From Candidatus Zixiibacteriota bacterium (GTDB taxonomy: Bacteria > Zixibacteria > MSB-5A5 > CAIYYT01): a DNA stretch of 64,000 bases. Within the stretch, counting starts at the first letter, position 1; each line of letters opens with the position of its first letter. The translations under genes were made by a program, and so were the position numbers. This document shows, in pieces, positions 34,263 through 62,445 of this stretch. The DNA is taken from NCBI GenBank assembly GCA_020853795.1, contig JADYYF010000042.1, positions 1 through 64,000 on the forward strand. The letters run 5' to 3'. The notes beneath the pieces were generated by a model that saw only the letters and a list, made by a program, of their open reading frames with translations, made no database searches and was not told the DNA's origin.

Positions 34263-34297
34263 CAGAGAAATCCTGTCTTTGTGATTTGGAGGATAAA

Positions 34298-44873: not shown

Positions 44874-46850
44874 CTACAGTGGCCGATTGACCAGCAGCAC
44901 CAGACAGGAGTCGTCCTCACGCAAGGTGGCATATTTCGCCCGATAATACGTTGCCGTCATTGCGGTGTCGGGAAGAAGATACTTGTGGACGACGACATGC
45001 GTGACACCGGCAGAGTCAAGTTGTCGTTGCTGGTGGTCGAGGTCCGCGAAATCAAGACGGTCGATCAGCGACCGGCCGATCTTGCGGGTGGCTGCGCCCT
45101 CAACGATCGGAATGCCGTGAATGGTCTGTTGCATCATGTAGTACATGGTGGGCACGTAGTCGTTCGGCAGATTCATGTATGCGCGCGGCGCCGGTTCGTC
45201 AGCGCGAGGTACGAGGATCGAGGGCGACGTGACCGGTGTCGTCTCACGACAGACTGAGAAAAAGTCAACTCCAAGCAAGACAACAAGAGCAGCAAATAGC
45301 AGGCGGCCTTTGGAAGAGCCGCTAAGCCAACGCCAATGAATCGAGAGTGCATTGGCGACGATAACTGCCCAGAACAAGTAGACATAGACGATGAAGCGCG
45401 CCGGTGCGCGGAGATTTGCCAGGAACGGGATGTAGGCGATGACGGTATACGGCAGGCCGATCGGCAGCGACTTCCCGAAGAGATGCAGTTGCGGGCCCAA
45501 GGCCAGTACCGCGAACGCGGTGAATCCCAGCCACCAACGCGCCGCCACCCGAACTATCTGCCGGCCTGCCGACAGAACGAGCAGGATCGTAATGATTCCC
45601 AGGTAGGCGGCGGCCTCGTGATGGTTACCGGTGTAGCTGGTATTCGCTGCCCGAATTGGCTCCCAGTCACCGAGCGGGTGCGCCAAACCCGGCACGACGA
45701 GACCGCCAAAGTCCGTCACGAATGTGTTGCGGCCGCCAACATCCGACTCGGCGGTTGAGAGCGCAATCTTCACCATCGGTACCAGCCACGGTGAGAGCAG
45801 CAACACGGTGGCACCGACGATGACGACTGAGCGCTTAATAAAATCACCTAACCACCAACGACGATTGCACAGCGCCAGATAGAGATAGGCAAACGCCATG
45901 AAGTAGCCCGCCATGATCATGTAAGTCCAGTCGCAGAGTGTGTTCAGAAGGAACAACGCCGCGGCGAAGACGAGGCTGGAGGTCTTGCGAAACCGGACAG
46001 CATCCCAGAAGGTCAGGACAAAGAACGGTATGAATTGAATTGAGTTGATGTGGATATGGTGTTGCGAGTGCTGGAAATGGTTGGGATTGAAGGCGAACAA
46101 AAACCCGCCAACCAGCGCGGCAGCCGAGTTGCCGGTCACGCGTTTGACCAACAGGAATGCTCCCAGCCCGGCCAGCGGATAGCCGTGAAGCAACACCAGA
46201 TTGAAGACGGTCACGCCATCGAAAAACAATCGCATTAAGAAGGTGAACAACAGATTGTAGAACGACCAGGCGAAGTAGTAGAGGGTTGACCCTTCAGGGA
46301 AGTAGATGGAATTGCTGAAGCTCAACGATTGCGGGCCGAGCAGTACTTGGTCGTTAGCCCACCACAAGCTCCAGTAGCCGGCAAGGTTGTCTTCCGGCGG
46401 TCCGATCAGGGCGGTGTTGATCGTGCCGAGTGTCGGGAAGAAGTAGATCGCCGTGAGCACGCAATAGGCGAAGCATGCCACCAGCCAATCGTAGCGGAAT
46501 GAAGCGGCGGAATCAGGGCGCTCCACACCGATACTCGACTGCGCCAGCAACCATTTGGATACACGCCACAAGCCGTACCAGAACAAGACAGTAAGCGGGA
46601 TCCCGACGAAGAGATATTGCCAGAAGATCAGGTCGGCACGCGCCAGATAGTACGGCAGATCGTGCCGGGCAAAATCAATAAACGCGACCGTCTTGTGCCC
46701 AGCCACGCTGGCCTCGTAAGCCGAGCGGATGAGATCGTGCGCGAAAAGAGCGTAAAGGATCGCCAGGACGAAAAGGACAGAGACGGTTACGGCCAAGTAG
46801 CGCAGTGCGCGCTGTGACCAGATGAAGTGCAACAGGGAGGGAACGCTCAC
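44874..46850 (-). CDS. polytopic membrane protein, GT-C glycosyltransferase-like
   Basis: 658 residues, GTG start 9 nt after the GT4 stop. At least 11 hydrophobic segments, with a periplasmic loop after the first pair carrying acidic residues (IGPPEDNLAGYWSLWWANDQ) and a soluble C-terminal domain (about 540-658, VPRADEPAPRAYMNL). The layout is that of lipid-linked sugar transferases of the GT-C class (YfhO/PMT-like), which use polyprenyl-phosphate sugars outside the membrane. Last gene of the exopolysaccharide locus; it could add side sugars to the polymer or glycosylate a surface protein. No exact family is claimed. Confidence 0.75.
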   Translation of the reverse strand: MSVPSLLHFIWSQRALRYLAVTVSVLFVLAILYALFAHDLIRSAYEASVAGHKTVAFIDFARHDLPYYLARADLIFWQYLFVGIPLTVLFWYGLWRVSKWLLAQSSIGVERPDSAASFRYDWLVACFAYCVLTAIYFFPTLGTINTALIGPPEDNLAGYWSLWWANDQVLLGPQSLSFSNSIYFPEGSTLYYFAWSFYNLLFTFLMRLFFDGVTVFNLVLLHGYPLAGLGAFLLVKRVTGNSAAALVGGFLFAFNPNHFQHSQHHIHINSIQFIPFFVLTFWDAVRFRKTSSLVFAAALFLLNTLCDWTYMIMAGYFMAFAYLYLALCNRRWWLGDFIKRSVVIVGATVLLLSPWLVPMVKIALSTAESDVGGRNTFVTDFGGLVVPGLAHPLGDWEPIRAANTSYTGNHHEAAAYLGIITILLVLSAGRQIVRVAARWWLGFTAFAVLALGPQLHLFGKSLPIGLPYTVIAYIPFLANLRAPARFIVYVYLFWAVIVANALSIHWRWLSGSSKGRLLFAALVVLLGVDFFSVCRETTPVTSPSILVPRADEPAPRAYMNLPNDYVPTMYYMMQQTIHGIPIVEGAATRKIGRSLIDRLDFADLDHQQRQLDSAGVTHVVVHKYLLPDTAMTATYYRAKYATLREDDSCLVLLVNRPL

Positions 46851-46859
46851 GGGCGCAAC

Positions 46860-47963
46860 TCACCGACCAGCCGCAGCCAGCAGGCGGCAGTAGTAATCTT
46901 CGTGATTGCGAACCATTGACTGCAGCGAGAATTTCTCCATCACCAAGGCACGGCCCCGCCGCCCCATTTCGCCGGCTATCTCGGGGTGGTTGACCAAGTA
47001 GAGAATCTTCTCTGCGAGGGCGGCGGGATTGTCGACTGGAATCAGGCAGCCAGTGCGGCCGTCGTCGATGACTTCCCGATTGCCGCCGACGTCGGTTGCG
47101 ATCACCGGCAGCCCCTGGCACATGTATTCAAGGATTGAATTCGAGAACCCCTCCGAGCGTGAAGTCAAGACACCAATCGTGGCGGAGGCTATCTCGGCAC
47201 GGACATCGTTCAGGCTTCCAAGAAACTGCGCTTGGCCGCCAACCCCAAGCGCTTCAGCCCGCGCCATCAGACGACCTCGTTCCGGCCCATCGCCGATGAT
47301 CCTGAATGCCACATCGGTACGACTCACACTCACGATCCTTGCGGCATCAATCAAGGTGTCGACAGCCTTTATTGGCCGGAGGTTTGCCGTCATGATGACA
47401 ATTGGCCGTGCGGGACGCGAACCGTGCAGCACCGGCGCAAGGTCGACGCCGTTGTAGATAACATCAAAGCGGTCGCGCGGCAGATGCTCGAGGCAGGCAA
47501 TGGAGTCAGCTACAGCTTCGGAGTTCGCCAGAAAGCGATGGGGGTAGCGATTGGCGAGGCGCAGGTAGCACCGTTCCTTCCAACCGAAACTATAGCCAAG
47601 ATTGCGGCGGGAAGAGATGATGACCGGCACCTGTGCCCGGCGCGCGGCAGAGCCGCCCACCAGGTGCGCCTCGGTAAAGAAGGTCTGGACAACGGCGACG
47701 TTGCGCGAGCTCATCAGGACAGCAAGCTTGGCACGTTGACGCAGGAACTTCGGGGTAAACATCCGGTCGAGGTCGAGACAGTGGGTCTCGACTTGCGCAT
47801 CGCCGGCGCGGACAAATTCGCAGTCCTGCAGGCTGACGATGATTGGCTCGAAGCGAGCACGATCAAGCGACGAGGCAAGTGTCAGGAGGCTGCGTTCGGT
47901 GCCGGCGCGGCCGTTGCCGAGCGAGCCGATGACGTACATGACGACGAACTTGCCGGCGCTCAT
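46860..47963 (-). CDS. family 4 glycosyltransferase
   Basis: 367 residues. GT-B fold: N-terminal glycine-rich acceptor loop (VIGSLGNGRAGTERSL), middle linker with VIYNGVDL, and the C-terminal donor site with EGFSNSILE (EX7E) and VATDVGGNREVI-type loop (IATDVGGNREVI). Retaining transferases of this type add sugars during exopolysaccharide or lipopolysaccharide assembly in the cytoplasm. It sits between the GT2 and the GT-C-like gene. Confidence 0.92.
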   Translation of the reverse strand: MSAGKFVVMYVIGSLGNGRAGTERSLLTLASSLDRARFEPIIVSLQDCEFVRAGDAQVETHCLDLDRMFTPKFLRQRAKLAVLMSSRNVAVVQTFFTEAHLVGGSAARRAQVPVIISSRRNLGYSFGWKERCYLRLANRYPHRFLANSEAVADSIACLEHLPRDRFDVIYNGVDLAPVLHGSRPARPIVIMTANLRPIKAVDTLIDAARIVSVSRTDVAFRIIGDGPERGRLMARAEALGVGGQAQFLGSLNDVRAEIASATIGVLTSRSEGFSNSILEYMCQGLPVIATDVGGNREVIDDGRTGCLIPVDNPAALAEKILYLVNHPEIAGEMGRRGRALVMEKFSLQSMVRNHEDYYCRLLAAAGR

Positions 47964-47976
47964 CTTGGCCCTTTGC

Positions 47977-48987
47977 TCAGGTGCGGCTGCGCATGATGCC
48001 GGTCAGGAAACCATAGCCGAGGGCGAAGTGAATGACGAAGAAGATGGTGGGCAAGTAGAAGATCAGCCATCCGGCGGCCTTGCGGCGGACGATGAGCAGC
48101 GATGTGATCAACACGATTAACAAGTAGAGAACAACGATCGCACTTGCCAGAGCGCCGAGCTTGGGTGAGAGCATCCAAGTGAGCGGAAAGAAGATAACGC
48201 CGAAGGTAAAGGCAGCCGTGATCAGGGCGCCTTCTCCCAGCGTGCTGGGGTGTTTGCGGTAGAGCCGCCAGCGACCCAAGCCATAGCGATAGAGCTGCTT
48301 GAACAACGAGGCCAGATTACGACGGGCAACATATTCGACAGTCAGCTTCGGTGAGATGTATGCTTCCAGTCCTGCTTTGTCGGCGCGAGTGTTGAATTCG
48401 ACGTCCTCACAGGCATCGAACGATTCGTCGAAGTAGCCGATGGTCTTAAAAACCTCGCGGCGATACATGGCGCCGGAGGAGGCGGCCCGCACCGGGCGTT
48501 CGCGATTGGAGTAGATGGTCGAGTCAAGTGCATGGCCCAAGGTGGAGGCGCGTGCCAAGGCAACAGCCTTCTGGAACGTCGACTGCGGGCTCATGGTCAG
48601 CGGCTGCGGGCGACAGAGGACATCCGAGCCAGTCTTCTCGAAAAGCGCGACCATATCGGCCAGCATCGTCGGCGAGACGATATGGCAGTGCCCGTCGACG
48701 AATGCGATGTACTTGCCTTGGGCGGCGCAGGCGCCGATGTTGCGCGCTTTGGAGGCCAGCCGACCGGGATTGTCGAGAATTCGAAAGTGAGGAAAAACGG
48801 TGCGATAGTTTTCGGCGACGGCCTTGGTGTTGTCGGTGGAGGAGCCGTCGACGACGAGAACCTCGACCTGATCGAGCGACAGCGACTGCCCCGCCAGATC
48901 CTCGAGAACTGATTGAATGTAGCGCCCCTCATTACGCACGGGCAAGACGACCGTAACCAGGATCGTGTCGCTACCAGCAGATACCAT
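47977..48987 (-). CDS. family 2 glycosyltransferase with C-terminal membrane segments
   Basis: 336 residues from ATG 48987, which overlaps the end of the dehydrogenase gene by 17 nt. Catalytic GT-A domain: TVVLPVRNEGRYIQSVLEDL, VVDGSSTDNT, the metal-binding FVDGHC (DxH-type in place of DxD), and CEDVEFNTRADKAG. From about residue 240 two or three membrane helices follow (GALITAAFTFGVIFFPLTWM, AIVVLYLLIVLITSLLIV). This is the ExoA/succinoglycan-type class, which extends a lipid-linked repeat unit. Confidence 0.9.
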   Translation of the reverse strand: MVSAGSDTILVTVVLPVRNEGRYIQSVLEDLAGQSLSLDQVEVLVVDGSSTDNTKAVAENYRTVFPHFRILDNPGRLASKARNIGACAAQGKYIAFVDGHCHIVSPTMLADMVALFEKTGSDVLCRPQPLTMSPQSTFQKAVALARASTLGHALDSTIYSNRERPVRAASSGAMYRREVFKTIGYFDESFDACEDVEFNTRADKAGLEAYISPKLTVEYVARRNLASLFKQLYRYGLGRWRLYRKHPSTLGEGALITAAFTFGVIFFPLTWMLSPKLGALASAIVVLYLLIVLITSLLIVRRKAAGWLIFYLPTIFFVIHFALGYGFLTGIMRSRT

Positions 48988-50284
48988 GATAATTGTCACC
49001 CAAAGCCGCGGGGTTGTCGCTGATGCGCACCAGATCGACAATCCGGCGGTCGCGCGCGGCCTTGAGGGCCAAGGCGTACTCGGGGTCGTAGTTACCGACA
49101 ACGATGACTTCCGACCCGTACACGACTTCGTCGATCGAGGTGGCGAACAGCTTTTCGATGTGGGGAATTTCTTTCTCGATGAACGCCTTGTTGGAGCCGA
49201 AGATGCGCGCGAGATTGACGTGACGATCATAGATCAGCAGTTCATAGCCTTTGCCGATCAGGCGTTCGGCGAGCCGCACCAACGCCGATTCGCGTAAATC
49301 ATCAGTGCCGCCCTTGAACGCCAGTCCGAGAAAGCCGATCTTCTTCTTCTTGAATGAAGTCACCAGTTGAAAACCTTCGTCCAACTGCTGGTCGTTGGAC
49401 GGCGGAATGGCCGCAATCAGCGGCGCCGCGTAGTCCATCTTCCGAGCTTGATACAACAACCCGCGCACATCTTTGGGCAGACAGGAGCCGCCATAAGCGA
49501 AACCGGGTTTGAGGTACATCGGCGAAATATTCTGTTTGGTGTCCAGGGCGAACAAGCGCATCACTTCGTGGCCGTCGATTCCGAATCGGCGTGCCAGTGT
49601 GCCGATTTCATTGGCAAAACAGATCTTGAGCGCGTGGAACACGTTACAGACATACTTGACCATCTCGGCGGTGCGGATCGTTGTGACTTCAAACGGTGCG
49701 TTCACGAAGGAAAACAACTGCTTGACAACCTCCGCGGCACCTTCGGATTGAACGCCCACGACCGTAAAGGGCGGATGATAGAGATCGTCGACGGCCGAGC
49801 CCTCGCGCAGAAATTCCGGATTGAAGCAGACATCAAAATCGAGATACACGCGCTTGCCGGAATGTTCCTCCAAAATCGGGATGACCACCTCTTCGGTTGT
49901 GCCGGGCGGAATTGTCGAACGATAAATCAGGGTATGGAAGCCCGACTTATTCTTCAGCACCTGGCCGATCTTCTCGCTGACCCGGGTAACGAACGTGAGG
50001 TCGACGTCGCCGTTCGGACGCGACGGCGTACCGACACAAATCATGGAGACATCGGTCTCGTTGATCGCAGAACGCGCGTCCATAGTCGCGGAGAGCGTAC
50101 CTTGACGCACCACATCGCTGATGATCTCAACGATCTTGTCTTCAACGAGCGGGCTTTTGCCCGCAGTGATCTGCTCGACCTTGTCTTTGCTGATTTCGAC
50201 GCCGATGACGCGGTGCCCCTCTTTCGCCAAGCAGGCCGCCGTGACCGCACCTACGTAACCCATGCCGAAGATCGAGATTCTCAT
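48971..50284 (-). CDS. algD: nucleotide-sugar dehydrogenase, GDP-mannose 6-dehydrogenase (AlgD) like
   Basis: 437 residues. Rossmann start MRISIFGMGYVGAVTAACLA, PSRPNGDVDLTFV, NPEFLREGSAVDDL, the catalytic Cys268 in GGSCLPKDVR, and FLGLAFKGGTDDLRESALV. It follows Pseudomonas AlgD closely: similar length, the same position of the catalytic cysteine, the block KPGFAYGGSCLPKDVR, and the same final residues GICW. I therefore favour GDP-mannose over UDP-glucose as substrate, giving GDP-mannuronate; a UDP-glucose activity cannot be excluded. It supplies a uronic acid for the polymer of this locus. Confidence 0.88.
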   Translation of the reverse strand: MRISIFGMGYVGAVTAACLAKEGHRVIGVEISKDKVEQITAGKSPLVEDKIVEIISDVVRQGTLSATMDARSAINETDVSMICVGTPSRPNGDVDLTFVTRVSEKIGQVLKNKSGFHTLIYRSTIPPGTTEEVVIPILEEHSGKRVYLDFDVCFNPEFLREGSAVDDLYHPPFTVVGVQSEGAAEVVKQLFSFVNAPFEVTTIRTAEMVKYVCNVFHALKICFANEIGTLARRFGIDGHEVMRLFALDTKQNISPMYLKPGFAYGGSCLPKDVRGLLYQARKMDYAAPLIAAIPPSNDQQLDEGFQLVTSFKKKKIGFLGLAFKGGTDDLRESALVRLAERLIGKGYELLIYDRHVNLARIFGSNKAFIEKEIPHIEKLFATSIDEVVYGSEVIVVGNYDPEYALALKAARDRRIVDLVRISDNPAALGDNYHGICW

Positions 50285-50307
50285 GACCGCCTCATTGCCC
50301 CCGCAAT

Positions 50308-51522
50308 TCAGGACGAAGTTCTGGACGCCACCAGCGCTTTCAGGGCGTCATACAACACACTCGCGGCCCGGCTCCAGGAATAGTGTTCCGTCACCAGCCG
50401 GTATCCGGCTTCGGCAATTCTACTACGTTTGTTGGCGTCAAGCAACAATTCCTTGACGGCATCGGCAAATGCCTCCTCGCCGTCGGCGATAACCAGGTGC
50501 TCGCCATTGACTAACGGCAGTCCCTCGGCACCGATCGAGGTGGAGATGACGCATTTCTTCATGGCCATCGCTTCATAGATCTTGATTCTTGTCCCGCCGC
50601 CGACCCGCAGTGGTACCAGATAGAGCTGCGCCGCCGCGACATACGGACGCACATCATCAACTGTGCCGGTAACCAAAGTGTCTCTGTCGGCGTGCGTAGT
50701 GGCCACTATCTCCGGTCCGGGACGCCTCCCAACAACTGCAAAGGATACTGCAGGGAAGGCCTTTCGGATTCGCGGGTAGATTGACCGATAGAACCACCAA
50801 AAGCCGTCGATATTCGGCATCCAATCCATCGATCCGCAAAACACCAGGCGTCCAGCGATCTCGCCGGTCTGAGGTTGAAAATACTCCACGTCGACGCCGG
50901 TCGGCAACATCGTGTATGTTTTCAGACCAAAGTCCTGCTTCAGAAGTTCGCCGTCATCCCTGGATACTGTCAGTACTACGTCAAATTCGGCGCAGGCCGC
51001 ACGTTCCGTCCGTGCGACTCTTCCCTGCTCGTAGTCAAAATAGAGCCGCTTCAGAAAGTTTGACTCCACTTGGTGGTACCGTCGCCAGATCATGGTCTCG
51101 ACGTTGTGCTCGAAGAGCACCGTCGGCAGGCCTTGGACGTGCTCGGCGCACCAGGCCATCTCCAGGAAATCACAGAGGGCGACATCGTGCCTGTCAGGTG
51201 TCCCCAATTCGCGGACGAGCGCAGTCATTTCCGGAGACATGTATTTCTTGACAATGTAAGGCCGCTGTGATGTCAGATTGCGCAAGACGCGGAAATAGAA
51301 ACCGGGGCCGGACTTGATCTCCTCCCCGCGCGGAATCGCCTCCACGCGAACGCCGGTCGCTTCCAATTCGTCGATATACCGCTTCGGATGGTCGGGCGGG
51401 ACATAGCAGAGAAAGGTGACGTCGGCGCGCCGGGCGAGTTCGACCAGCAGGTGCTTCGTGCGAATTTTGCCGCCAGTATCGGCGGGCAGCGGAAAGTCAG
51501 ACTTGATCCAGAGGACTCTCAC
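50308..51522 (-). CDS. family 4 glycosyltransferase, PEP-CTERM/EPS-associated type
   Basis: 404 residues from GTG 51522, which overlaps the asnB stop as GTGA; an upstream frame extension lies inside asnB. N-terminus VRVLWIKSDFPLPADTGGKI with a conserved RTKHLLVELARRADV helix resembles the sugar transferases (Stp1-like) of exosortase-linked EPS loci. Donor-site features include FCGSMDWMPNIDGFWWF, VPLRVGGGTRIKIYEAMAM and STSIGAEGLP. It adds a sugar to the growing repeat unit. Confidence 0.88.
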   Translation of the reverse strand: MRVLWIKSDFPLPADTGGKIRTKHLLVELARRADVTFLCYVPPDHPKRYIDELEATGVRVEAIPRGEEIKSGPGFYFRVLRNLTSQRPYIVKKYMSPEMTALVRELGTPDRHDVALCDFLEMAWCAEHVQGLPTVLFEHNVETMIWRRYHQVESNFLKRLYFDYEQGRVARTERAACAEFDVVLTVSRDDGELLKQDFGLKTYTMLPTGVDVEYFQPQTGEIAGRLVFCGSMDWMPNIDGFWWFYRSIYPRIRKAFPAVSFAVVGRRPGPEIVATTHADRDTLVTGTVDDVRPYVAAAQLYLVPLRVGGGTRIKIYEAMAMKKCVISTSIGAEGLPLVNGEHLVIADGEEAFADAVKELLLDANKRSRIAEAGYRLVTEHYSWSRAASVLYDALKALVASRTSS

Positions 51523-53444
51523 GGACAAATCCTTATGGCTTCCGGAGTGCAGCCTTTGAAAAAGATTGAGTGCCAGATCTCGAGATTCAGAAGGGTCCAA
51601 ATCTGATCGGAGTAATTGTACTTCCCTGCCCGATGCAGTTGGAACATCTGCTCGATGACGCTGCGGTCGAAGAGCTCGAGGCAGAGCGAGTCATCGCCCA
51701 GGATCATTTGCCGAGCTGCATCATGATACTCCTCGGCAAACCATCGTCGGATCGGAACCGGAAAGCCGGCTTTGGAACGAGTGAGGATCGCTTGCGGGAT
51801 GTCTTTCCTGAAGGCTTGTCGGAGAACTCGCTTCGTGTTAAAGCGTTTGATCTTCATGTGATCGGGCAGTTGAAACGCGAACTCGACCAGTTTGTGATCG
51901 AGAAACGGCACGCGTGACTCGATTGAGGCTGCCATCGACATCTGATCCTGCTTCATCAGCAGTTCCACCAAGTAGGTCTTGACATCGGCGTAGAGCATGC
52001 GCGCGAGCGGCGAATCAGAACTGGAGCGAGAGTGGTGTTCGAAGTAGGCCGCATAGACGGTCCCGGGGTCGATGCCCTGCCACAAGGGGCCGGACAGAAG
52101 CCGCTTCAGCCAGGCGCGCGAGAAGGTTGAATAGTTGTCGAGCAGTAGCGACTCCAAATCGGCATCGAGATACATCGCCGTGCGGACGGCCTTGTTGCGA
52201 TATGGCAGCTTGTACGGCAGCGCGTCGATCATCGGCCGGATCACCCGACGTCGGAGCGAGGCCGGCAGCACCCAGCGCAGCAGACGATCGGCGCGGAAGT
52301 TGTACAAGGTCTGATAGTACCGCTCGTAGCCGCCGAAGAGCTCATCGGAACCTTCCCCGGTCAATACCACCTTGACATGTTTGCCGGCCAATTCAGAGAC
52401 TTTGTAGAGCGCGACCGATGACGGGTGAGCCATCGGCTCGTCTTCGTGATAAATCATGCGCGGGAGGAGCTGAAAGAAGTCCTCGGTCGACATCGTCACT
52501 TCGTGCTGATCGGCACCGGCGTGGCGGGCAGCGAGTCGGGCGTACTCAAGCTCGTTAGCCTCTCGTTCCGCGAAAGCAACGCTGAAGGTTGCGATCGGAC
52601 GTTCGACCATCCGGGCCATCCGGGCGGCGATTATTGTGGAGTCGATTCCGCCGGAGAGAAACATGCCGAGCGGCACGTCCGCCATTAACCGGAGACTGAT
52701 CGATTCGTCCAGCAGTTCGCGTAAGCGTGTGGCAGCGTCTTGCTCGGAGATGGCCGGGTCAATTTGAATCTGCCCGCAATCCCAATAGCGGACGATGCTG
52801 ACGATCCCGTCCTTGAGCTCCAGATAGTGGCCTGGTTCGAGTTTATGGATTCCGCAGAAGAGCGTCGTGTCGTCGCAGGTGTACTTGAGCGCCAATACTT
52901 GCAGGAGTGCCCGGTGATTCAACTCGCGGCAGATTCCCGGCAGCTCCAGCAAGGCTTTGATTTCGGACGCGAAACCGAAAAATTCCGGTGTGTCGACGTA
53001 GTAGAGCGGCTTGATTCCAAGCCGGTCGCGCGCGATGAAGACGGAATTGACGCGCCGATCATGCAGCGCAAAGACAAACATGCCGCGCAGCTTGTGCAGT
53101 CCGGCGCTGCCGTCGGCGGCAATGGTGTTTATGATCGTCTCGGTGTCGGAGAGCGTGCGGTAGCGATAACCCCGGGTTTCCAAGTCGCGGCGTAAATCGC
53201 GGTGATTATAGATCTCGCCGTTGTAAACAATCCAGATCGTCTCGTCGGCATTGGTCATCGGCTGATGTCCTCCCGCCAGATCAACAATGGAGAGGCGACG
53301 GTGACCGAAACCGACGTTGCGGTCGAAGTAGTAGCCGTGGTCGTCGGGGCCGCGATGGACGAGTTTTGCCGTCATGCGCTTAACGGTGTCGGGCTCAACG
53401 TGCCGATCAGGATCTTTGTAAACCAGTCCGCAAATTCCGCACAT
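51519..53444 (-). CDS. asnB: AsnB-type glutamine amidotransferase, exopolysaccharide-associated
   Basis: 641 residues. Class II glutaminase with nucleophile Cys2 (MCGICGLVYKD, VHRGPDDHG, WIVYNGEIYNH) and an asparagine-synthetase domain with the PP-loop LSGGIDSTIIAA and TGEGSDELFGGYERYY. Such genes inside polysaccharide loci (for example the exosortase-system amidotransferases) probably amidate a sugar or uronic acid rather than make asparagine. Here a uronate made by the AlgD-like enzyme is a natural candidate; that is inference. It overlaps the glycosyltransferase downstream by 4 nt and follows the lyase gene by 5 nt. Confidence 0.9.
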   Translation of the reverse strand: MCGICGLVYKDPDRHVEPDTVKRMTAKLVHRGPDDHGYYFDRNVGFGHRRLSIVDLAGGHQPMTNADETIWIVYNGEIYNHRDLRRDLETRGYRYRTLSDTETIINTIAADGSAGLHKLRGMFVFALHDRRVNSVFIARDRLGIKPLYYVDTPEFFGFASEIKALLELPGICRELNHRALLQVLALKYTCDDTTLFCGIHKLEPGHYLELKDGIVSIVRYWDCGQIQIDPAISEQDAATRLRELLDESISLRLMADVPLGMFLSGGIDSTIIAARMARMVERPIATFSVAFAEREANELEYARLAARHAGADQHEVTMSTEDFFQLLPRMIYHEDEPMAHPSSVALYKVSELAGKHVKVVLTGEGSDELFGGYERYYQTLYNFRADRLLRWVLPASLRRRVIRPMIDALPYKLPYRNKAVRTAMYLDADLESLLLDNYSTFSRAWLKRLLSGPLWQGIDPGTVYAAYFEHHSRSSSDSPLARMLYADVKTYLVELLMKQDQMSMAASIESRVPFLDHKLVEFAFQLPDHMKIKRFNTKRVLRQAFRKDIPQAILTRSKAGFPVPIRRWFAEEYHDAARQMILGDDSLCLELFDRSVIEQMFQLHRAGKYNYSDQIWTLLNLEIWHSIFFKGCTPEAIRICP

Positions 53445-53449
53445 GATTG

Positions 53450-55822
53450 CTATGCCTCGTTCCCAACGGTAACGATGCGACTCATTGACGGGTCAGGTGC
53501 GATGATGCCGTCGGCACGACTGACGCGCAAGACCCAGACGGCACCGTCGAAGGTCAGGTCGACATACTGCAGCGGATGAGCTGCGCGAAAGAGCTCGCCT
53601 CCATTGAACTTCAGTCGTGAAGCGTTGACAAGGACAATGTGCGCGGCTTCCAGCGGGCCGAAAGAGGCATAGCCGAATTCCGCGTCGGTATCAAGGCGCT
53701 GGTCCGGGCTTTCTTCGAAGCGGAAAAGATAGAACTGCTCGGCCTCGTTTTCCGGGGCGTTGGTTTGCGTTCGTTCGTAGAGTTGTGCCGGTTCTGCGCC
53801 GCTTCGACGGCCGGGAGCAGCAGCTCCGGGAAGCAGTACCCAGCCGAGGTGAGTCTCTCTGGCGAAGTGGGCAATGACGCGCAACGATCCGCCCCAGTGT
53901 CCGCGGCCATAATCGATTGGTACCCAGGAATTGGTCATCTCGACATCGCAGGAATAGAGACCAAAAGGAAGTATCGTCAGGCTGGATCGCCGACCGGCAA
54001 TGATGCCGGTCTTTTCCTTCCACTGTATCGGTTGCGCGGCACGAAAATCCCAGGCCGCCTGCACCGGCTTCTGCGCAATTACAGAATCGGCTACCAGCCA
54101 GCCGCCTTCGCTCAGGAAAATCACCGCGCGCTCCAACTCGACCAAGTTCCCGCCATCAAGATTTACCGAATATGCGGCGCGGAAGTATTCCGACGCGTCA
54201 CAGCGCAAATAGGCGGACAGTCGACAAGCCGGCTGGGCTGTCCAGGCAAATACGTCCTCCGGATCGTAATACTCGGCGCCAAAAATGCGCGGACCGTTAT
54301 GGGCCAGGCACGAACGGAATTGATTGCGGCCGGCCCGATTACCGGTGTAGCTATACGTGCCGGGGTCGATTAACAGCGCATCTTCGCCGACAGCGATCTC
54401 CAGGTGCAGGTGATCGGCGTGCGAATGCGGCGAATCCAGATAGCCAAACCGGCCGAACTGGAACACCGAATAGCAGTCTTGAGCACGCGACACTAACAGA
54501 CCGCTGTCCTTCAGCAGTGCTGATGCGATTTGTTCGCCGCTTCCAACCGTCTCCGCTTTGGGGGCAAGCCAGAAGGCTTCGAGTGAAACTGCTTCATCCG
54601 CCTGATGAATGCCAAGATAACGGGTGGCGGCGGTCAGAATCGGCGAGTAGTCTTGGGCCGCCGGCCGCGAGAGAAAGTAAAGGCGGCCGCCATCGTCATC
54701 GCCGATCGCCGGCCAGCGGCCGTCGGGGCGCTGCAGAAGGCGCAGGGTTTCGACCATTCCCGTCAACCGTCGGCGGACAGCCGGCGGCAGAGGATCGCCG
54801 TTGCGCTCGGCCAGAAGGAGGAACGACAGTGTAAATTCCAGCGCATAGGCATGATAACAGGTCGTCATTTCCGCGTGCAGGTCGTCGTGAGTGAATTGGC
54901 GATCAAGCTCCTGGAGGAGCAGCCGACGGCCACATGAGCGCCATTCGGCGGCTTCGCAAAATTCGGGAAACACCGTACCGAGGAGGTATAGGCCGTAGGC
55001 TTCACCCAATAGATGCGTATTGGGCGCGAAATAGACCGAAAGATGATCACGCAGGAAGCGGCCGCTTATATGAAGCAGCCGATACGCGTCCGCCGCCACC
55101 GCAGGCGTGACCGACTCGCTCCCGCGGAAGGCGAAGACCGCCCACGCGACCGACTGTGCGCGAAACGCAAACTCGAGCGCGGAACAGAAGTTGATCCCGT
55201 GATAGTCGCGATTGTGTCGGTTCCAATCGGACAATAATGTCCAAAAGTGCGCCGAAAACTGCTCTTCGCCAGTCAGGAGGTAGGCTTGCGCCAAGTCATA
55301 CACAAACTGCAGGCGCGACAGCTCCCAGATGATCTTCGAATCGCCGGCAAGATCGGAGTCTAAATACGGAACCTCGGCATAAAACGCCTCCGGCGCCGAC
55401 CGACGCGCGTCGGGGTCGAAATTCCACGAGGTCGGCGATCCATAAGAAATCGGCGGCCGGTGAAAAACCGGAAAGGAGCCTTGGAGAATGCTATGGGCAT
55501 AATCCTGGATTCGGGCCTGATCATCCGGCGCGTGACGACGGACGAATTCCGGAAACTCGGTCGATCGCGAGAACCCGGGAAAGAAGCGAGCTGGGTCCTT
55601 GTCTCGCAGCGCCTGCCGGAGATCGAGGCTCTCGACGCCACCGTAAGTACGCGAGAACGCTTCCGTGAAAATCTCACGATAGTTCTCGGGACAGAACCAC
55701 GAACGCCCGGCAGCATGATGTCGGCGTTCGCGCCGGCGGTTCAGTTGTTCGCGCGCCCGAAACGTCAATTCACGGAAATTGCCCGCGGCGACCTTGCGCA
55801 GCACTTTGGCGAATTTGCTCAT
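53450..55822 (-). CDS. heparinase II/III-family polysaccharide lyase-like protein
   Basis: 790 residues from ATG 55822 (ATGA overlap with the GT4 stop). The N-terminal half is an alpha-toroid (NFDPDARRSAPEAFYAEVPY, WELSRLQFVYDLAQAYLLTG, NTHLLGEAYGLYLLGTVFPE with the catalytic-type Asn-His pair, TCYHAYALEFTLSFLL). The C-terminal half is the beta-sandwich of the heparinase II/III C domain (SPHSHADHLHLEIAVGEDAL, DPGTYSYTG, NGPRIFG). Lyases of this class cut uronate-containing polymers by beta-elimination, as alginate or heparan lyases do. Inside a biosynthetic locus it probably trims or clears the polymer, as AlgL does for alginate. I see no signal peptide, which is odd for that role. Confidence 0.9.
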   Translation of the reverse strand: MSKFAKVLRKVAAGNFRELTFRAREQLNRRRERRHHAAGRSWFCPENYREIFTEAFSRTYGGVESLDLRQALRDKDPARFFPGFSRSTEFPEFVRRHAPDDQARIQDYAHSILQGSFPVFHRPPISYGSPTSWNFDPDARRSAPEAFYAEVPYLDSDLAGDSKIIWELSRLQFVYDLAQAYLLTGEEQFSAHFWTLLSDWNRHNRDYHGINFCSALEFAFRAQSVAWAVFAFRGSESVTPAVAADAYRLLHISGRFLRDHLSVYFAPNTHLLGEAYGLYLLGTVFPEFCEAAEWRSCGRRLLLQELDRQFTHDDLHAEMTTCYHAYALEFTLSFLLLAERNGDPLPPAVRRRLTGMVETLRLLQRPDGRWPAIGDDDGGRLYFLSRPAAQDYSPILTAATRYLGIHQADEAVSLEAFWLAPKAETVGSGEQIASALLKDSGLLVSRAQDCYSVFQFGRFGYLDSPHSHADHLHLEIAVGEDALLIDPGTYSYTGNRAGRNQFRSCLAHNGPRIFGAEYYDPEDVFAWTAQPACRLSAYLRCDASEYFRAAYSVNLDGGNLVELERAVIFLSEGGWLVADSVIAQKPVQAAWDFRAAQPIQWKEKTGIIAGRRSSLTILPFGLYSCDVEMTNSWVPIDYGRGHWGGSLRVIAHFARETHLGWVLLPGAAAPGRRSGAEPAQLYERTQTNAPENEAEQFYLFRFEESPDQRLDTDAEFGYASFGPLEAAHIVLVNASRLKFNGGELFRAAHPLQYVDLTFDGAVWVLRVSRADGIIAPDPSMSRIVTVGNEA

Positions 55823-56925
55823 GTTCGGCCAAGCACCTTCAAGTAGACGCCGGCCCATTGCTCGCGCACCTGCTCCCAGCTGAAGCGGGCAGCGTCGGCG
55901 CGGCCGCCGGCGATGATTGCCGCACGCAGTTGCGAATCTTCCATAACTGTAACTAGTGCCTGCGCCAGCGCATCGTCGTCACGCATTGCGCACAGCAGGC
56001 CGTTCTCCCGATCGCGCACGACATACGGAATGCCGCCGGCATTGGTCGTGACGACCGGCAGGCCGCAGTAGAAAGCCTCAATGATCGCGACCGGCATGTT
56101 GTCGATGACAGAGGCGTTCAGGAAAATGTCGGCTTCGTCGAACAGACGGGCCATGGCTTCGCGCTCGACTCGACCGGTGAAGGTCACTCCCGCGATTCTT
56201 TCCTCGGCAACCAAGCGGCGCAGGTGTTTCTCGTCGGAGCCGCTGCCGACAATCTTGATTGTGGCCTGTGGATAGCGGTCGCGGAAGCGGGCAAACGCGC
56301 GCAGAGCCGTTTCGATATCGTACAGCGGTTCGAGGTTGCGCGCCACCAGCACCCGTGGCGCGACGCTCGCGCGATCGCGGAATTTGAAAATGTTGAAGTC
56401 GGAGATGTTGAAGATCGCCTCCGCTCGAAAGCCGTGCCGGCCGAAGATTTCGACCAGGTATCCTGAAGGCACAACGATCAGGTCGGCCTTGCGAATGATC
56501 CGATGGCAGCTTCGCCGCCAGCGCGTAAGGTGGTCGTCGGCCTCACCGGAACGGTAGTTGAGAATGCACCTCTTGCCGAAGAGCTTGGCGATCAAAATCG
56601 CCGGCGCCGGCGCCAGCAGAAACGACAAGTACGAAGCGCTGAAGACGTGGATGACATCATGACGCGGAATGCGCTGCAGCAGCCCGCCAAGGTAGAAGAC
56701 CGAGACGATCACCGTACGCAGATACTTGATGCGCGTCAGATAGTTCAGCGGCCACCACGGAACCGGATCGTGCGGCTGGAAATCTGCAGCGACGTCTTCT
56801 CGGCGGAAGTTGCGCAGCAGGAGGTCGGCCTGCACGGCCTGGCCGCCCATGATGTTGAGCGACGGCGCAACAATGAGTATGCGCACGCCATTCAAGCGCT
56901 CACTGATAGGCCTAACGGCGGACAT
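55819..56925 (-). CDS. family 4 glycosyltransferase
   Basis: 368 residues from ATG 56925, overlapping the CapK-like gene by 14 nt; an ATG 18 nt upstream and a GTG (before RILIVAPSLN) are alternatives. GT-B marks: RILIVAPSLNIMGGQAVQAD, ILNYRSGEADDH, VPSGYLVEIFGRHG, KIVGSGSDEKHLRRL and NASVIDNMPVAIIEAFYCGL leading to the donor-site Glu pair. It is one of four glycosyltransferases of the locus. Confidence 0.9.
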   Translation of the reverse strand: MSAVRPISERLNGVRILIVAPSLNIMGGQAVQADLLLRNFRREDVAADFQPHDPVPWWPLNYLTRIKYLRTVIVSVFYLGGLLQRIPRHDVIHVFSASYLSFLLAPAPAILIAKLFGKRCILNYRSGEADDHLTRWRRSCHRIIRKADLIVVPSGYLVEIFGRHGFRAEAIFNISDFNIFKFRDRASVAPRVLVARNLEPLYDIETALRAFARFRDRYPQATIKIVGSGSDEKHLRRLVAEERIAGVTFTGRVEREAMARLFDEADIFLNASVIDNMPVAIIEAFYCGLPVVTTNAGGIPYVVRDRENGLLCAMRDDDALAQALVTVMEDSQLRAAIIAGGRADAARFSWEQVREQWAGVYLKVLGRT

Positions 56926-58279
56926 TGCACTCGCTCGTAACATAACGGTACTTGCCGGACTTGTCGTACTTCAACTCCCCAACCGCCTGATAATCAATCG
57001 TCACTGCTCCCCCTAGAAGCCCTTCCAGCCGTGATCGAAAGCGGCTCTTAACGTCATCCGCGATCACTGCACCGGACAAGTGGCGGACCCGAAACGCCTG
57101 CGGCGCGGTCTGCACAACCTGCACCTTCTGTTGCAGGCCGCTGGTGCGAAGCGCCATGATGATCGCCTCCCCGGCGATTCGCGCACCGTCCGGACGGATG
57201 ATCAAATCAACCACGCGGCCGCCGACCGCCGTGATCCGCCGCCAACTGGATTCGGCGGCGGGAGATGCCGCTTCGAGCTTGACCAAATCGCCAGTGCGGT
57301 ATCGAATCAGCGGCATGGCAAGATTGTAGAGATCGGTAACCACCAGCTCGCCCATGCCGTTCCCCGCGACTGTCCGGCCTTGCTCGTCAAGGACCTCCAA
57401 GTAGTATGTCGGCTCGAAGACGACCATTCCGTTGTGTTCCGGCCCCGCAGCAGCGACGGTGCCGATCTCGCGCGCGCCATAACGCTCGTAGGTATCACAG
57501 GCAAAGACCGCACGAAACAGCTCGCGTTGCCAATCATACGTCGGTTCGGCAGTGGTGATGATGCGCAGCACCGGCGGCACGTGAGCGCCAGACTCGCGAA
57601 TCTGCTCGGCAATGACGGCGAGCATGTTCGGATAGGCATAGATGGCGTCCGGACGATGCGTCTGCAATTGCCTGATAAACGCAACTATCGCTTCCCGACC
57701 GGCGTCGAAACTGTAGAAATAGATCGCACGCTCGGACAAGAAGTTGGCCAGGCGCCCCTTAAGGGAGGCGACCTGATCAACGTCGATCGGTGAACCCCAG
57801 ACCCAGGCGCGTTTGGTTCCCGGGAGGATTTCGAGGCGTGCATTGAAAAAGTAGTCCTGCGCCCGTCGCACGGCCGTCACGTCACGATCGCGATAAAACG
57901 TCAACGGCACGCCGCTGGAGCCGCCGGTGGAAGACTCGATCAACTGTTCGCGCGGGAAGGCGTTCGACAGGATGCGATCCATCTGCTGATTCAGATCATC
58001 CTTGTCCAGCAACGGCAGGACACGAATGTCATCGCAGTTCTGGATCGTGCCCGCACTCAATCCGACGGCAGCCAGACGGTCGCGATGGAATGGCGACGTA
58101 GCCGCCGCGTGGCGCAACAACAGGCGGAGTTTCTCAAGACGATGGCGTTCGAGCTCTTCCGGAGAAGCGCCCCAGAATCGCCGCAGATCTCGATAGTGAC
58201 GTAACAGGGCGGACTCCCCGCGGTACGCCAGCAGAAGCGGGTACCCAATCGAGCGCACGAATCGATTCGCCAGGCTCAT
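56912..58279 (-). CDS. CapK/PaaK-like adenylate-forming enzyme (second of a tandem pair)
   Basis: 455 residues from ATG 58279 (ATGA overlap with the first copy). Adenylate-forming signatures: P-loop ESSTGGSSGVPLTFYRDRD, YERYGAREIGTVAA, RYRTGDLVKLE and DKSGKYRYVTSECNV at the end. The CapK subgroup occurs in capsule and exopolysaccharide loci, where it may activate a small carboxylic acid for attachment to the polymer. Two complete copies stand side by side here, differing enough that each may have its own substrate. Confidence 0.88.
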   Translation of the reverse strand: MSLANRFVRSIGYPLLLAYRGESALLRHYRDLRRFWGASPEELERHRLEKLRLLLRHAAATSPFHRDRLAAVGLSAGTIQNCDDIRVLPLLDKDDLNQQMDRILSNAFPREQLIESSTGGSSGVPLTFYRDRDVTAVRRAQDYFFNARLEILPGTKRAWVWGSPIDVDQVASLKGRLANFLSERAIYFYSFDAGREAIVAFIRQLQTHRPDAIYAYPNMLAVIAEQIRESGAHVPPVLRIITTAEPTYDWQRELFRAVFACDTYERYGAREIGTVAAAGPEHNGMVVFEPTYYLEVLDEQGRTVAGNGMGELVVTDLYNLAMPLIRYRTGDLVKLEAASPAAESSWRRITAVGGRVVDLIIRPDGARIAGEAIIMALRTSGLQQKVQVVQTAPQAFRVRHLSGAVIADDVKSRFRSRLEGLLGGAVTIDYQAVGELKYDKSGKYRYVTSECNVRR

Positions 58280-59685
58280 GCTTTCGGCTCCGGCTTGATT
58301 TCGCAAATAGAGAATCGGTACTTCCCTGATGCTTCGCGTGGGATCTCCGGCACCTGGTGGAATTCAATTGACATGTCCGCACCGAAAAAGTGCCGCACCT
58401 TCTCTCGCACCAATTGGCGCGATTCTTCGGTGAAGTCAGGTCCGGTCACCAAGTTGAATTCCAGCCGATCCCTGACGCATTGCACGATCTGCGCTTGCCT
58501 GATCCCAGGAACCTGCGCGGCCAGGTAGATGGTGAGCGCCGCGCCGGAGACTCTGCGTCCGTCGGGAGCGAGCAGGAAGTCAGTAGTACGGCCAGCCACC
58601 ATTTTCATTTTCGGCAACGTCACCCCGCAAGGGCACTCTTCCTCGGGGGCCGCTGCACCGACGTCACCGATCTGGTAGCGAATGAAGGGAAACGCCAGAT
58701 TGCCGAGCACGGTGACCAGGATCTCACCCGACTCTCCGGGTGCGACAGTCTTCCCGCCGGCTACAAATTCCAGATGCAGATAATCGGCGCCGATGTGCAG
58801 TCCATTGTGAGCCGAGCATTCCGAGGCAATGACCGAGGTCTCGCGCGATCCGTAGCGATCGAAGACTTTCACGCCGAAATGGCCCTCAATGAGTTCACGG
58901 TTTTCCGACGTCAACACCTCCGCCGAGGTGATGATCGTGCGCGGCGGCGGCAGTTCAATTTGACTGGCTTTCAGAAAATTGACAACGAGCGCCAGGGAGT
59001 TGGCATAGGCCAGGATCACCGAAGGTCGAAACCGTAGGTAGCGCCCGACGAATTCGCGCAGGCGCACATCGGAGAGATCGGAGCTGTCAAGAATCAACTG
59101 GCGGTCGATCAGCGTGTTGCGTAGACGGGCCTTCACCGAATTCAATGCCGACAGGTCGGTCTGGTGGCCCCAGATCAGGGCGGTCTTGTCGCCGCGGCGG
59201 TAACCGGCCCAGAGATTGTGGCGGAGCGTGGCGGCTTGCCGTTGCTCCCAGCGTTCTCTCTCATGATAGAAGACAATCGGCGCGCCGGTGGAACCGCCAG
59301 TGCGGTTCTCGATCAGATCCGATCGCTGGAATTGATTGGAAATCAGCCGCTCGCGATTTGCCTGGATGTCGGCCTTGGTCAGCGGCGGGATGACTGCCAG
59401 ATCATCAAAATCGCGTAAGGTCGCGGGGTCGAAGCCAGCCGCGCGGAAGCGGTCGCGGAAGAAGGCGACATGGTGGTCGGCATGCAGGAGCACTTCGCGC
59501 AAACGTCGCAGCCGAAGATCCCGCAGGTGGTCGCGCGAGAGGCGTTCGCTCTTGCGCAACTCCTTAAGTATGGCCAGTTCCCGGCTGCCGCGTCGGAGTG
59601 CCAGCAGCGGGTAGAGGATATCAGAGACGACTTTCTGGTACACTTGGTATTCGACCGTCCATGCACTTGCTGCCCGCGGCGCCAT
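58276..59685 (-). CDS. CapK/PaaK-like adenylate-forming enzyme (first of a tandem pair)
   Basis: 469 residues; the ATG at 59685 lacks a clear ribosome site, so the start is uncertain by a few codons. Motifs: ENRTGGSTGAPIVFYHERE (P-loop), VFDRYGSRETSVIASECSA, FIRYQIGDVGAA, a CPCG cysteine pair, and ASGKYRFSICEI. It resembles the second copy in layout (tail ending SGKYRF/Y) and is about 15 residues longer. It presumably activates an acyl group for polymer decoration. Confidence 0.87.
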   Translation of the reverse strand: MAPRAASAWTVEYQVYQKVVSDILYPLLALRRGSRELAILKELRKSERLSRDHLRDLRLRRLREVLLHADHHVAFFRDRFRAAGFDPATLRDFDDLAVIPPLTKADIQANRERLISNQFQRSDLIENRTGGSTGAPIVFYHERERWEQRQAATLRHNLWAGYRRGDKTALIWGHQTDLSALNSVKARLRNTLIDRQLILDSSDLSDVRLREFVGRYLRFRPSVILAYANSLALVVNFLKASQIELPPPRTIITSAEVLTSENRELIEGHFGVKVFDRYGSRETSVIASECSAHNGLHIGADYLHLEFVAGGKTVAPGESGEILVTVLGNLAFPFIRYQIGDVGAAAPEEECPCGVTLPKMKMVAGRTTDFLLAPDGRRVSGAALTIYLAAQVPGIRQAQIVQCVRDRLEFNLVTGPDFTEESRQLVREKVRHFFGADMSIEFHQVPEIPREASGKYRFSICEIKPEPKA

Positions 59686-59787
59686 CGGATCCAGACCGCA
59701 GACTCATGCTGCCAGAGATATAGCACGTCCCAATGCCGTGCGGCAAAGGCAAAATGCAGATTCAGGATTCGAATCGAGGGAGCTGGA

Positions 59788-60861
59788 TCAGGCTTTGAAG
59801 CCGAAGGAAATCGATTTCTTCGGGCAGGTGCGGATGCACTCGCCACAGGAGGTGCAATCCGGCAAGCCAAGCGAATCGCCCTTGAGCAGCGGTTTGATTG
59901 TCGGACACGGAGACTTGATCACACAAACGCCGCAATCATTGCAGGTCTGGCGATTGATACGCACCCGGGCCGGCGCGATCTTCTCCAACAACCAACTGAA
60001 CGCACCGATGGGGCAAATCAGATAGCAGAATGGCCGATAGAGTGCCAGGCTGGCGAGCACCAGGATCGGCATAGTGATCCAGAAAAGCGTGTTGAAGGTC
60101 CAGTGCAGGTATTCAAAGTAATTGATCGGGTCGTAGACGCTGTATGCGGAATAGGCCTTCCAGAGCGGCGTGCCGGCCATGCCGGTCTCCGCTCCGAGGG
60201 CATCCATGTATGATTTCGCCCAGAAGAACGTCAGGAAGAACATTACCAGCAGCATGAAGCGCACGGCATTAAAGGCGGTGAAATTGAACTGCTTGATTCG
60301 CCATTTGACCGGAATCTTGTTGATCAATTCTTGAAACGCTCCCAGCGGACAGACCCAGCCGCAGAACAGCTTACGGCCGATCAGGCTCGGCACGAAGATG
60401 ATCAGGAAAAAGGTCAGGAAACCGACAAACCACTCGCCGTGCGTGAAGCGGAACATAAATAACTTGGTCACGGCGCACATCGGACTTGGATGCAGCGGAA
60501 AGATCTGATCACTCCCAAACACCACGAAGATCACCGCCAGACCGACCAAGCGCACCCAGAGGTTTATCGCCCGCGCAAAGAGCAGGATCAACCCGGCCGC
60601 CATCAAGCCCAGCATCGTCAGATACTTCGGCGCCGACATAATGGTCCAAATCGTCGGTTCCGCTTCTTGTTGGTCACCATGCGTGGGACTTGCCGTAGTC
60701 GCTGAAGATGCTGCCGTATCGGCGGGGGTTTGGTGACTGTGCTCGGCCGCGGGATCGCTCGGCCCGGACTCGGTCGCTTGCGCCAGCAAGGCAGGAGTGA
60801 GATTCGCGAGGAACAGAGCCATCACGAAGATGAGAGCGGTACGTGCGAGAAGTCTGGTCAC
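59788..60861 (-). CDS. NapH/NosR-like 4Fe-4S membrane protein
   Basis: 357 residues, GTG start directly after a promoter. An N-terminal signal or TM helix, then a low-complexity stretch (about 30-70, rich in Thr, Ala, Ser, His and Asp), then TM segments, the two CxxxCP motifs FCGWVCPLGAFQE and YLICPIGAFSW, and two ferredoxin-type clusters (CNDCGVCVIKSPCP and CTSCGECIRTCP) near the C-terminus. NapH/NosR/CcoG-like proteins pass electrons from quinol to a periplasmic or cytoplasmic partner. No reductase partner is nearby; it lies between a Wzy-like gene and a CapK pair, which is unusual. Confidence 0.9.
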   Translation of the reverse strand: MTRLLARTALIFVMALFLANLTPALLAQATESGPSDPAAEHSHQTPADTAASSATTASPTHGDQQEAEPTIWTIMSAPKYLTMLGLMAAGLILLFARAINLWVRLVGLAVIFVVFGSDQIFPLHPSPMCAVTKLFMFRFTHGEWFVGFLTFFLIIFVPSLIGRKLFCGWVCPLGAFQELINKIPVKWRIKQFNFTAFNAVRFMLLVMFFLTFFWAKSYMDALGAETGMAGTPLWKAYSAYSVYDPINYFEYLHWTFNTLFWITMPILVLASLALYRPFCYLICPIGAFSWLLEKIAPARVRINRQTCNDCGVCVIKSPCPTIKPLLKGDSLGLPDCTSCGECIRTCPKKSISFGFKA

Positions 60862-60898
60862 ATTGACAAGAATATCAATATTGAGGGTTTGGTCAATG
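60861..60898 (-). promoter_or_regulatory. promoter covered by a nested dyad, candidate operator
   Basis: On the minus strand TTGACC (60896-60891), 16-nt spacer, TATTCT (60874-60869), 7 nt to the GTG at 60861. Around one centre (60879.5) lie the palindrome TCAATATTGA (60875-60884) and outer arms CATTGAC / GTCAATG (60861-60867 and 60892-60898), each separated by exactly 7 nt. No Shine-Dalgarno is seen, so the mRNA may be leaderless. Confidence 0.5.
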
Positions 60899-60933
60899 CA
60901 AAAATCGAAGGATTTGCCGAGCGCGCAGGCACG

Positions 60934-62370
60934 TCAACGAGGTGACGCAGCTGACGGTGCGTCTTGGGATACCTGGTCGCTCAAGACCTTGGCCGTCAGA
61001 GTCATCAAGACCAAGGTCAGGGCCGCCGAGGAGTACCAATGGCCGCGGAACAGCGAGTGGCCGAACATCGCTGTCACAAAGAGGATATAGGTCGCAGTGG
61101 TAATCGAGTGCGATACCCAAACCAGAAAGTGTTCAGGTTTTCCGGCCTTGGCCAACTGCCGTCGCAATCGGACATTGGTAGCGATCATATACCAGACCAG
61201 CGAACCAAAGGTAACAACTCCCAGAACGCCCATCTCGGCAATCAACTGGATGTACATGTTGTGCGGGCGCAGATAGGAACGCGTCTCGGAGTACTCGCCT
61301 GAGCCGTAAGCATAGGGAAAGCCGTCGACGCCGATGCCGGTCAGCGGATTGGCCTTGAACATTCCCCAGCCTGCTTTCCAGGCATCCAGACGCCCCTGCG
61401 TCGAGGAGTCCTTCTCTTCGGCGAAAATCGTTGAATAGCGTTCCTGATATTGTGGTGGCAGAGCGAACCAGGATGCGATCAGCACCAGGACGGCAATCAC
61501 GCCGCTGATTGCTTTCCGCTTGGACAACAGCCAAACAAAGAGCGCGGCGGCGACAAGCCCGATCACGCCGGAACGTGAGCCGGTGATCGCAATTGTGAAG
61601 ATGGCGGCGGTCAGAAACACCAGCGGTACCAGGCGCAAAAGGACATTGCGCACCCAGAAGAGCGAAAAGTACAGAAATGGGATTCCGAGCAGCAAATTGA
61701 CCGCCAGCGTGTTCGGATCGGTTCCGGTCAGGCCGGCCGCACGCTCGATTCCCTGCGCAATCACCAGAGTGCCGGAGAAGTAGCCGATCGCCGAACTGAT
61801 CGCATTGTAGCCGGTCGCCAACATCATCAGCCACACGAATCCCTTGAGGCGGAACTCAGTCGTGAGGATGTTGATCAGGAGCAGGTAATAGACATATACC
61901 CAGAGGAAATCCATGATGAACTGCAGTGAATCCGATTTCCAGAAGGCCAGCGGTACGGTGGCAAACATCGCGGCAATGAAGAAGAGGAAATGGCGCGACA
62001 TTCGATCACGGCCGAAATTGAACGACTCGCCGCTGTACTTCTTGTGGATCAGAGTCGACAGCAGCAGTCCGGAAGCGATGGCTCGCGCCGGATGCAGGGG
62101 GGCCAACGAGGTAAACAGCTCCTCGGGGCGAACGACAATGTCGATGTAGTAGCAGATCAGCCCGATATACGGATAAAGAGCGATCAACACGCCGACCAGC
62201 AGCGCCGCCAGCGCGCCGGCGATGAACGCGGGTTTGGCAAACAGCACCAAGATCCCGACCGCGACCGCCACCAGCGCATAGACGGCAATGATGACTCCGT
62301 GTCCCGTAATCAGCCGCGGCGGCGGTTCCGGCACGGAGTAACTCCCGGTTCGCTCTTGCTCGGTTTGCAT
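60934..62370 (-). CDS. O-antigen ligase/polymerase-like protein (Wzy_C family)
   Basis: 478 residues from ATG 62370. About 11 hydrophobic segments, the family motif TGSRSGVIGLVAAALF, and the large periplasmic loop with TGIGVDGFPYAYGSGEYSET followed by RPHNMYIQLIAEMGVLG carrying the catalytic-type His. Members polymerise or ligate polyprenyl-linked repeat units on the periplasmic side. First gene of the exopolysaccharide locus; whether it polymerises the uronate polymer or attaches it to a lipid cannot be told. It lies 75 nt after rdgB. Confidence 0.88.
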   Translation of the reverse strand: MQTEQERTGSYSVPEPPPRLITGHGVIIAVYALVAVAVGILVLFAKPAFIAGALAALLVGVLIALYPYIGLICYYIDIVVRPEELFTSLAPLHPARAIASGLLLSTLIHKKYSGESFNFGRDRMSRHFLFFIAAMFATVPLAFWKSDSLQFIMDFLWVYVYYLLLINILTTEFRLKGFVWLMMLATGYNAISSAIGYFSGTLVIAQGIERAAGLTGTDPNTLAVNLLLGIPFLYFSLFWVRNVLLRLVPLVFLTAAIFTIAITGSRSGVIGLVAAALFVWLLSKRKAISGVIAVLVLIASWFALPPQYQERYSTIFAEEKDSSTQGRLDAWKAGWGMFKANPLTGIGVDGFPYAYGSGEYSETRSYLRPHNMYIQLIAEMGVLGVVTFGSLVWYMIATNVRLRRQLAKAGKPEHFLVWVSHSITTATYILFVTAMFGHSLFRGHWYSSAALTLVLMTLTAKVLSDQVSQDAPSAASPR

Positions 62371-62445
62371 CAAGTAGAATGTAACTCCGATGAGAAGTGA
62401 ACGGCAAGAAACAAGTGGCCTCGGTTCGAGACGCAGGATCGCCGG

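Follow-up and report, generated by a model that had tools for sequence, protein, structure and literature searches.

Several described systems bear on the locus reported here. In the psc1 cluster of Rubrivivax gelatinosus and the PEP-CTERM cluster of Thauera MZ1T, genes for a Wzy protein, CapK, two glycosyltransferases, an AsnB-type enzyme (wbpS) and a further glycosyltransferase adjoin one another (PMC3684757), and transposon insertions in the wbpS-type AsnB, CapK, Wzy and glycosyltransferase genes of psc1 reduce or abolish aggregation (PMC3684757). The alginate pathway uses AlgD, AlgG, AlgL, Alg8/Alg44 and AlgE. WbpS and WbqG, which act on N-acylated uronates in pathways for O antigens and for the Porphyromonas linking sugar, fall within the amidotransferase model TIGR03108 and are required for uronamide sugars, and deletion of wbpS in Porphyromonas leads to loss of the uronamide (PMC7468200). 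Finally, a set of Tyr, His and a second Tyr is common to uronate lyases and dermatan sulfate epimerase (PMC11848413, PMC8006597).

The locus lies in a window of 64,000 nucleotides (bases 1-64000 of the 90-kb contig C42) from a 3.56-Mb draft genome of the Zixibacteria. It forms one co-directional block on the minus strand, running from 62373 down to 44874, and reads as a variant of the psc1 theme, with which it shares the Wzy, CapK, glycosyltransferase and AsnB genes, to which an AlgD-type dehydrogenase and a heparinase-fold enzyme (Hep) have been added. Table 1 of the psc1 study contains neither a heparinase-fold nor an AlgD-type gene, and psc1 holds its own export genes and PEP-CTERM regulators within the cluster (PMC3684757), whereas homologues of the polysaccharide export protein, the initiating transferase and the flippase are found on other contigs of the Zixibacteria genome. 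With the alginate pathway the block has in common an AlgD-type dehydrogenase (48% identical to AlgD of Pseudomonas aeruginosa) and a protein with a uronate-lyase fold, but it encodes a Wzy-like polymerase and its lyase-fold protein appears not to be exported. Searches with Pfam and NCBIfam profiles found no Alg8/Alg44-like synthase among the block's genes, and the AlgE family PF13372 had no match in the genome.

From 62373 the gene order is Wzy, a NapH-like protein, CapK1, CapK2, GT4a, Hep, AsnB, GT4b, the dehydrogenase (DH), GT2, GT4c and a membrane protein. All genes named in the preliminary description of this DNA, which had proposed a co-directional block with several 4-nt overlaps coding for a repeat-unit heteropolymer with a Wzy-like protein, an AlgD-type dehydrogenase and no Alg8/44 polymerase, are present. 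When junctions were computed using internal start codons, overlaps of exactly 4 nt were found at CapK1/CapK2 (58279), GT4a/Hep (55822) and AsnB/GT4b (51522); most junctions are short, with gaps to the preceding neighbor of 5 nt for AsnB, 23 nt for DH, 13 nt for GT4c and 9 nt for the membrane protein. The first gene (60934-62373) encodes an O-antigen ligase-type polymerase with a Pfam Wzy_C match of 96 bits. The following NapH/MauN-like (NapH/NosR-like) 4Fe-4S ferredoxin membrane protein (59788-60861), assigned by profile matches, sits inside the block; it has no counterpart in the syntenic loci of relatives and is probably a bystander. The four glycosyltransferases comprise GT4a (55819-56925; Pfam Glycos_transf_1, 115 bits), which lies directly upstream of Hep and is kept in synteny, GT4b (50308-51522), GT2 (47977-48987, with a probable start at 48987; Pfam Glycos_transf_2, 83 bits) and GT4c (46860-47963). 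The block ends with a large multi-pass membrane protein (44874-46850), for which no Pfam or NCBIfam family match was found and whose predicted structure was unusable (pLDDT 37); a homologue 44% identical to it occupies the same position in one related Zixibacteria locus (L033).

The dehydrogenase (48971-50284) matched P. aeruginosa AlgD (1mfz) with 465 bits over its full length, compared with 240 bits for the best UDP-glucose dehydrogenase (UGD), and its identity to the two UGDs used as references is 35-37%. Cys268 within the motif GGSCLPKD and the C-terminal GICW, both pointed out in the preliminary description, are as in P. aeruginosa AlgD. In a tree of 46 dehydrogenases from loci with this module, in which one AlgD and two UGD sequences were the only references, AlgD nested inside the module group. 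Position 217 holds the AlgD-type His in all 46 module dehydrogenases and Leu in both UGDs, and Ser254, Lys250, Leu269 and other residues likewise match AlgD and not the UGDs. By these sequence comparisons DH is a member of the AlgD clade. The only other full nucleotide-sugar dehydrogenase of the genome carries the motif GGHCIPIDP, which in our reading marks a WecC/WbpO-like enzyme. The rest of the genome thus yielded no canonical UGD; a homologue of GDP-mannose pyrophosphorylase is encoded on contig C53. Taken together, clade placement, AlgD-type residues, the lack of a canonical UGD and the pyrophosphorylase homologue suggest GDP-mannose as the likelier substrate. A ManC-type domain is present in Zixibacteria and many other genomes with the module, while several genomes gave weak matches or the PMI-type part only; among the latter are several module-bearing Acidobacteriota without a ManC-type pyrophosphorylase domain, and GDP-mannose is therefore not secured as the substrate everywhere.

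Hep (53450-55822) has both Pfam domains Hepar_II_III_N and Hepar_II_III_C, and its AlphaFold model (pLDDT 87, pTM 0.90) is closest among solved folds to heparinase III (PL12), then to alginate lyases of PL39, PL15 and PL17 and, lower, to human dermatan sulfate epimerase 1. With these proteins it shares the toroid and beta-sandwich fold and the conserved Tyr/His/Tyr set, but identity is only 10-17%. Residues were compared in 48 sequences (the window protein and 47 homologues) and equated with those of known enzymes through alignment and motifs rather than structural superposition. Tyr335, His478, His480, Asp498 and Tyr504 were invariant in all 48, and His480 and Asp498 form a probable metal site. 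Of the PL12 catalytic pair Asn240/Tyr294, the Tyr is kept as Tyr335 (48/48), but the Asn is replaced by Thr281, again in every sequence, beside a conserved Asn280 and His282. The heparinase III numbering of Asn240 is presumed here and agrees with the chain offset of the structure. This replacement suggests that the activity of Hep may differ from that of the known lyases and epimerases.

A further difference from the polysaccharide lyases and dermatan sulfate epimerase 1 is that an N-terminal hydrophobic export signal was found in none of the 48 Hep sequences (hydrophobic stretch threshold 2.0); as a control, two window proteins with typical signal peptides did show an N-terminal hydrophobic stretch. 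Hep thus appears to stay inside the cell. This speaks against the trimming of exported chains that had been suggested for it in the preliminary description, and a secreted lyase was rejected on the same ground. A second, paralogous heparinase-fold gene of the genome, 28% identical to the window copy, is located on another contig (L031, positions 7753-11279, from C44), where its neighbors include a Wzy-like gene and a nucleotidyltransferase but no AsnB.

The AsnB-type enzyme (51519-53444) has intact synthetase active-site motifs and Cys2. It scored 513 bits with the general asparagine synthase model TIGR01536 (cut-off 267) and 559 bits with TIGR03108, below the cut-off of 817. As in the WbpS/WbqG pathways, a TIGR03108-related amidotransferase is found beside sugar genes (PMC7468200), although the uronate in the block would come from an AlgD-type enzyme. 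Given that TIGR03108 takes in WbpS and WbqG, and given the Porphyromonas deletion phenotype, amidation of a uronate by AsnB is a supported inference, qualified by the score below the model cut-off. CapK1 (58276-59685) and CapK2 (56912-58279) are PaaK/CapK-type adenylate-forming enzymes, as had been described; CapK1 matched PaaK-like relatives in NCBIfam (137 bits) and phenylacetate-CoA ligase structures and has intact YGSRE, YQIGD and SGKYR motifs, and CapK2 was recognized by its NCBIfam match and its likewise intact adenylate-forming motifs. That they add acyl groups, as the preliminary description proposed, is a guess. Two CapK-type enzymes also occur in a second polysaccharide locus of this genome (L029, contig C129, 10000-29900), together with another TIGR03087-like glycosyltransferase, a FemAB-like protein, deacetylases and a flippase.

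The order CapK-CapK-GT4-Hep-AsnB-GT4-DH was recovered by BLAST against the open reading frames of relatives in five other Zixibacteria contigs (L032, L033, L034, L035 and L036), which belong in part to the same family and in part to a second family of the class, and a Wzy homologue precedes CapK1 in loci L035 and L041. A wider scan of named genomes with an alignment of the Zixibacteria heparinase-fold proteins gave 80 loci, assigned by the names in their sequence records to Zixibacteria, Acidobacteriota, Gemmatimonadota, Rokubacteria, NC10, Nitrospirota, Planctomycetota, Armatimonadota, ANGP1 and Proteobacteria. A core of five genes (GT4a, Hep, AsnB, GT4b, DH) keeps its order across about eight bacterial phyla. 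In 38 of the 57 loci with room for it, AsnB starts within 200 nt of where Hep ends; where 7 kb of downstream sequence was available, AsnB, GT4b and DH all follow Hep in 34 of 46 loci (33 of them in the order Hep-AsnB-GT4b-DH), and the complete set of five genes with GT4a adjacent was found in 20 of 43. As loci were chosen by similarity to Hep, these counts describe this Hep subfamily and not heparinase-like genes at large. CapK lies close by in only 7 of 52 loci, which places it outside the general core, and the CapK pair is mainly a feature of Zixibacteria. Synteny, on which the preliminary description had made its proposal depend, is thus kept in related Zixibacteria and in other phyla far above chance. 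Only distant heparinase-fold matches were found in a search of plasmids; a related variant on a Shinella plasmid (NZ_OZ000531.1) lacks AsnB but strings together a dehydrogenase, a GT4, a lyase-fold protein, a cellulase-family gene, an O-antigen ligase and GumC. The locus had no match in an anti-phage library. In the open-access literature we found no description of the module and no paper pairing heparinase and asparagine synthase with exopolysaccharide or exosortase, in agreement with the preliminary description, in which the combination was not recognized as a described system. With its core recurring in the same order across about eight phyla, the locus, which holds genes for an acidic slime polymer, looks like a real variant within a known class of slime-making systems, seemingly one that has not been described before.

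Our favored explanation, offered tentatively as somewhat short of probable, is a Wzx/Wzy-type repeat-unit locus related to XrtA/PEP-CTERM systems, making a polymer with mannuronate or mannuronamide; Hep would act in the cytoplasm and may be a C5-epimerase. The AlgD-type dehydrogenase would, most likely, oxidize GDP-mannose to GDP-mannuronate, and the GT4 and GT2 enzymes would assemble a lipid-linked repeat unit containing mannuronate. Cytoplasmic Hep would modify the uronate, AsnB would convert carboxylates to amides, and the CapK pair may activate a carboxylic acid that is then attached to the glycan. Once flipped, the repeat unit would be polymerized by Wzy, with the flippase, export protein and initiating transferase presumably supplied from the other contigs.

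A role in protein anchoring could be added to this explanation, with which it is compatible: the block may be an XrtA/PEP-CTERM exopolysaccharide locus that has diverged, with a polymer that would carry or bind PEP-CTERM proteins after their sorting, a possibility that we hold to be real but less than even. The best NCBIfam matches of Wzy (TIGR03097, 106 bits, cut-off 188), AsnB (TIGR03108), GT4b (TIGR03087, 242 bits, cut-off 317) and GT4c (TIGR03088, 142 bits, cut-off 409) are all XrtA/PEP-CTERM-associated models, but all four scores fall below the cut-offs; judged by sequence, these families have diverged relatives in AsnB, GT4b and Wzy. Neither this kinship nor the wide spread of the five-gene core had been noted in the preliminary description. 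The genome encodes an XrtA exosortase just over the cut-off (TIGR03109, 213 bits, cut-off 208), EpsI and four PEP-CTERM tails, one of them in the window on a protein 9.8 kb from the block (34247-35110, plus strand), yet its single exosortase is located, with EpsI, on another contig (C92), neither in nor adjacent to the block. An exosortase was found in 27 of the 34 genomes searched but not in the remaining seven, which include the isolate Litorivivens lipolytica. The window also encodes a repeat protein of 1418 residues whose C-terminal domain is of the type IX secretion kind (36543-40799, minus strand), so the genome has both PEP-CTERM and T9SS-type sorting tails.

Two further readings concern the chemistry of the uronate. 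If DH used UDP-glucose, the polymer would contain glucuronate or glucuronamide and Hep would act on glucuronate, like heparinase III or dermatan sulfate epimerase. The want of a canonical UGD elsewhere in the genome can also be read this way, as can the heparan lyases at the top of Hep's structural matches and the module genomes that show no ManC-type domain; set against the AlgD-clade placement and the AlgD-type residues in the 46 module dehydrogenases, we consider it unlikely. Hep could instead be a genuine lyase with a part in trimming or recycling the polymer, comparable to AlgL in the alginate pathway, in keeping with its polysaccharide-lyase Pfam families and fold and with the conserved Tyr335 and His478. 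We think this doubtful, in view of Thr at the position of Asn240 and because a lyase lacking an export signal would cut its own cytoplasmic precursors. An epimerase acting on a lipid-linked unit would not, and on this argument C5-epimerization appears somewhat more likely than cleavage. Glycosyltransferase loci often shuffle, and the genes might have been gathered by chance in one lineage; this is very improbable, and was rejected, as their order is kept both in related Zixibacteria and in distant phyla.

The recurrence of this core, with its gene order intact, in soil and sediment phyla that are for the most part uncultured suggests that a matrix polymer is common among them. In that case, proteins of such loci that have a lyase fold and are annotated as alginate lyases would serve biosynthesis inside the cytoplasm, and their genes would have to be read differently in metagenomes. 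More speculatively, and in our view improbable as it stands, these loci could represent a widespread, undescribed class of exopolysaccharide systems in which cytoplasmic Hep epimerizes a lipid-linked uronate before amidation, giving residues of the mannuronamide/guluronamide type; Hep would then be the bacterial equivalent of dermatan sulfate epimerase, at work on the precursor. The cultured carriers Pyrinomonas methylaliphatogenes and Litorivivens lipolytica make the module testable.
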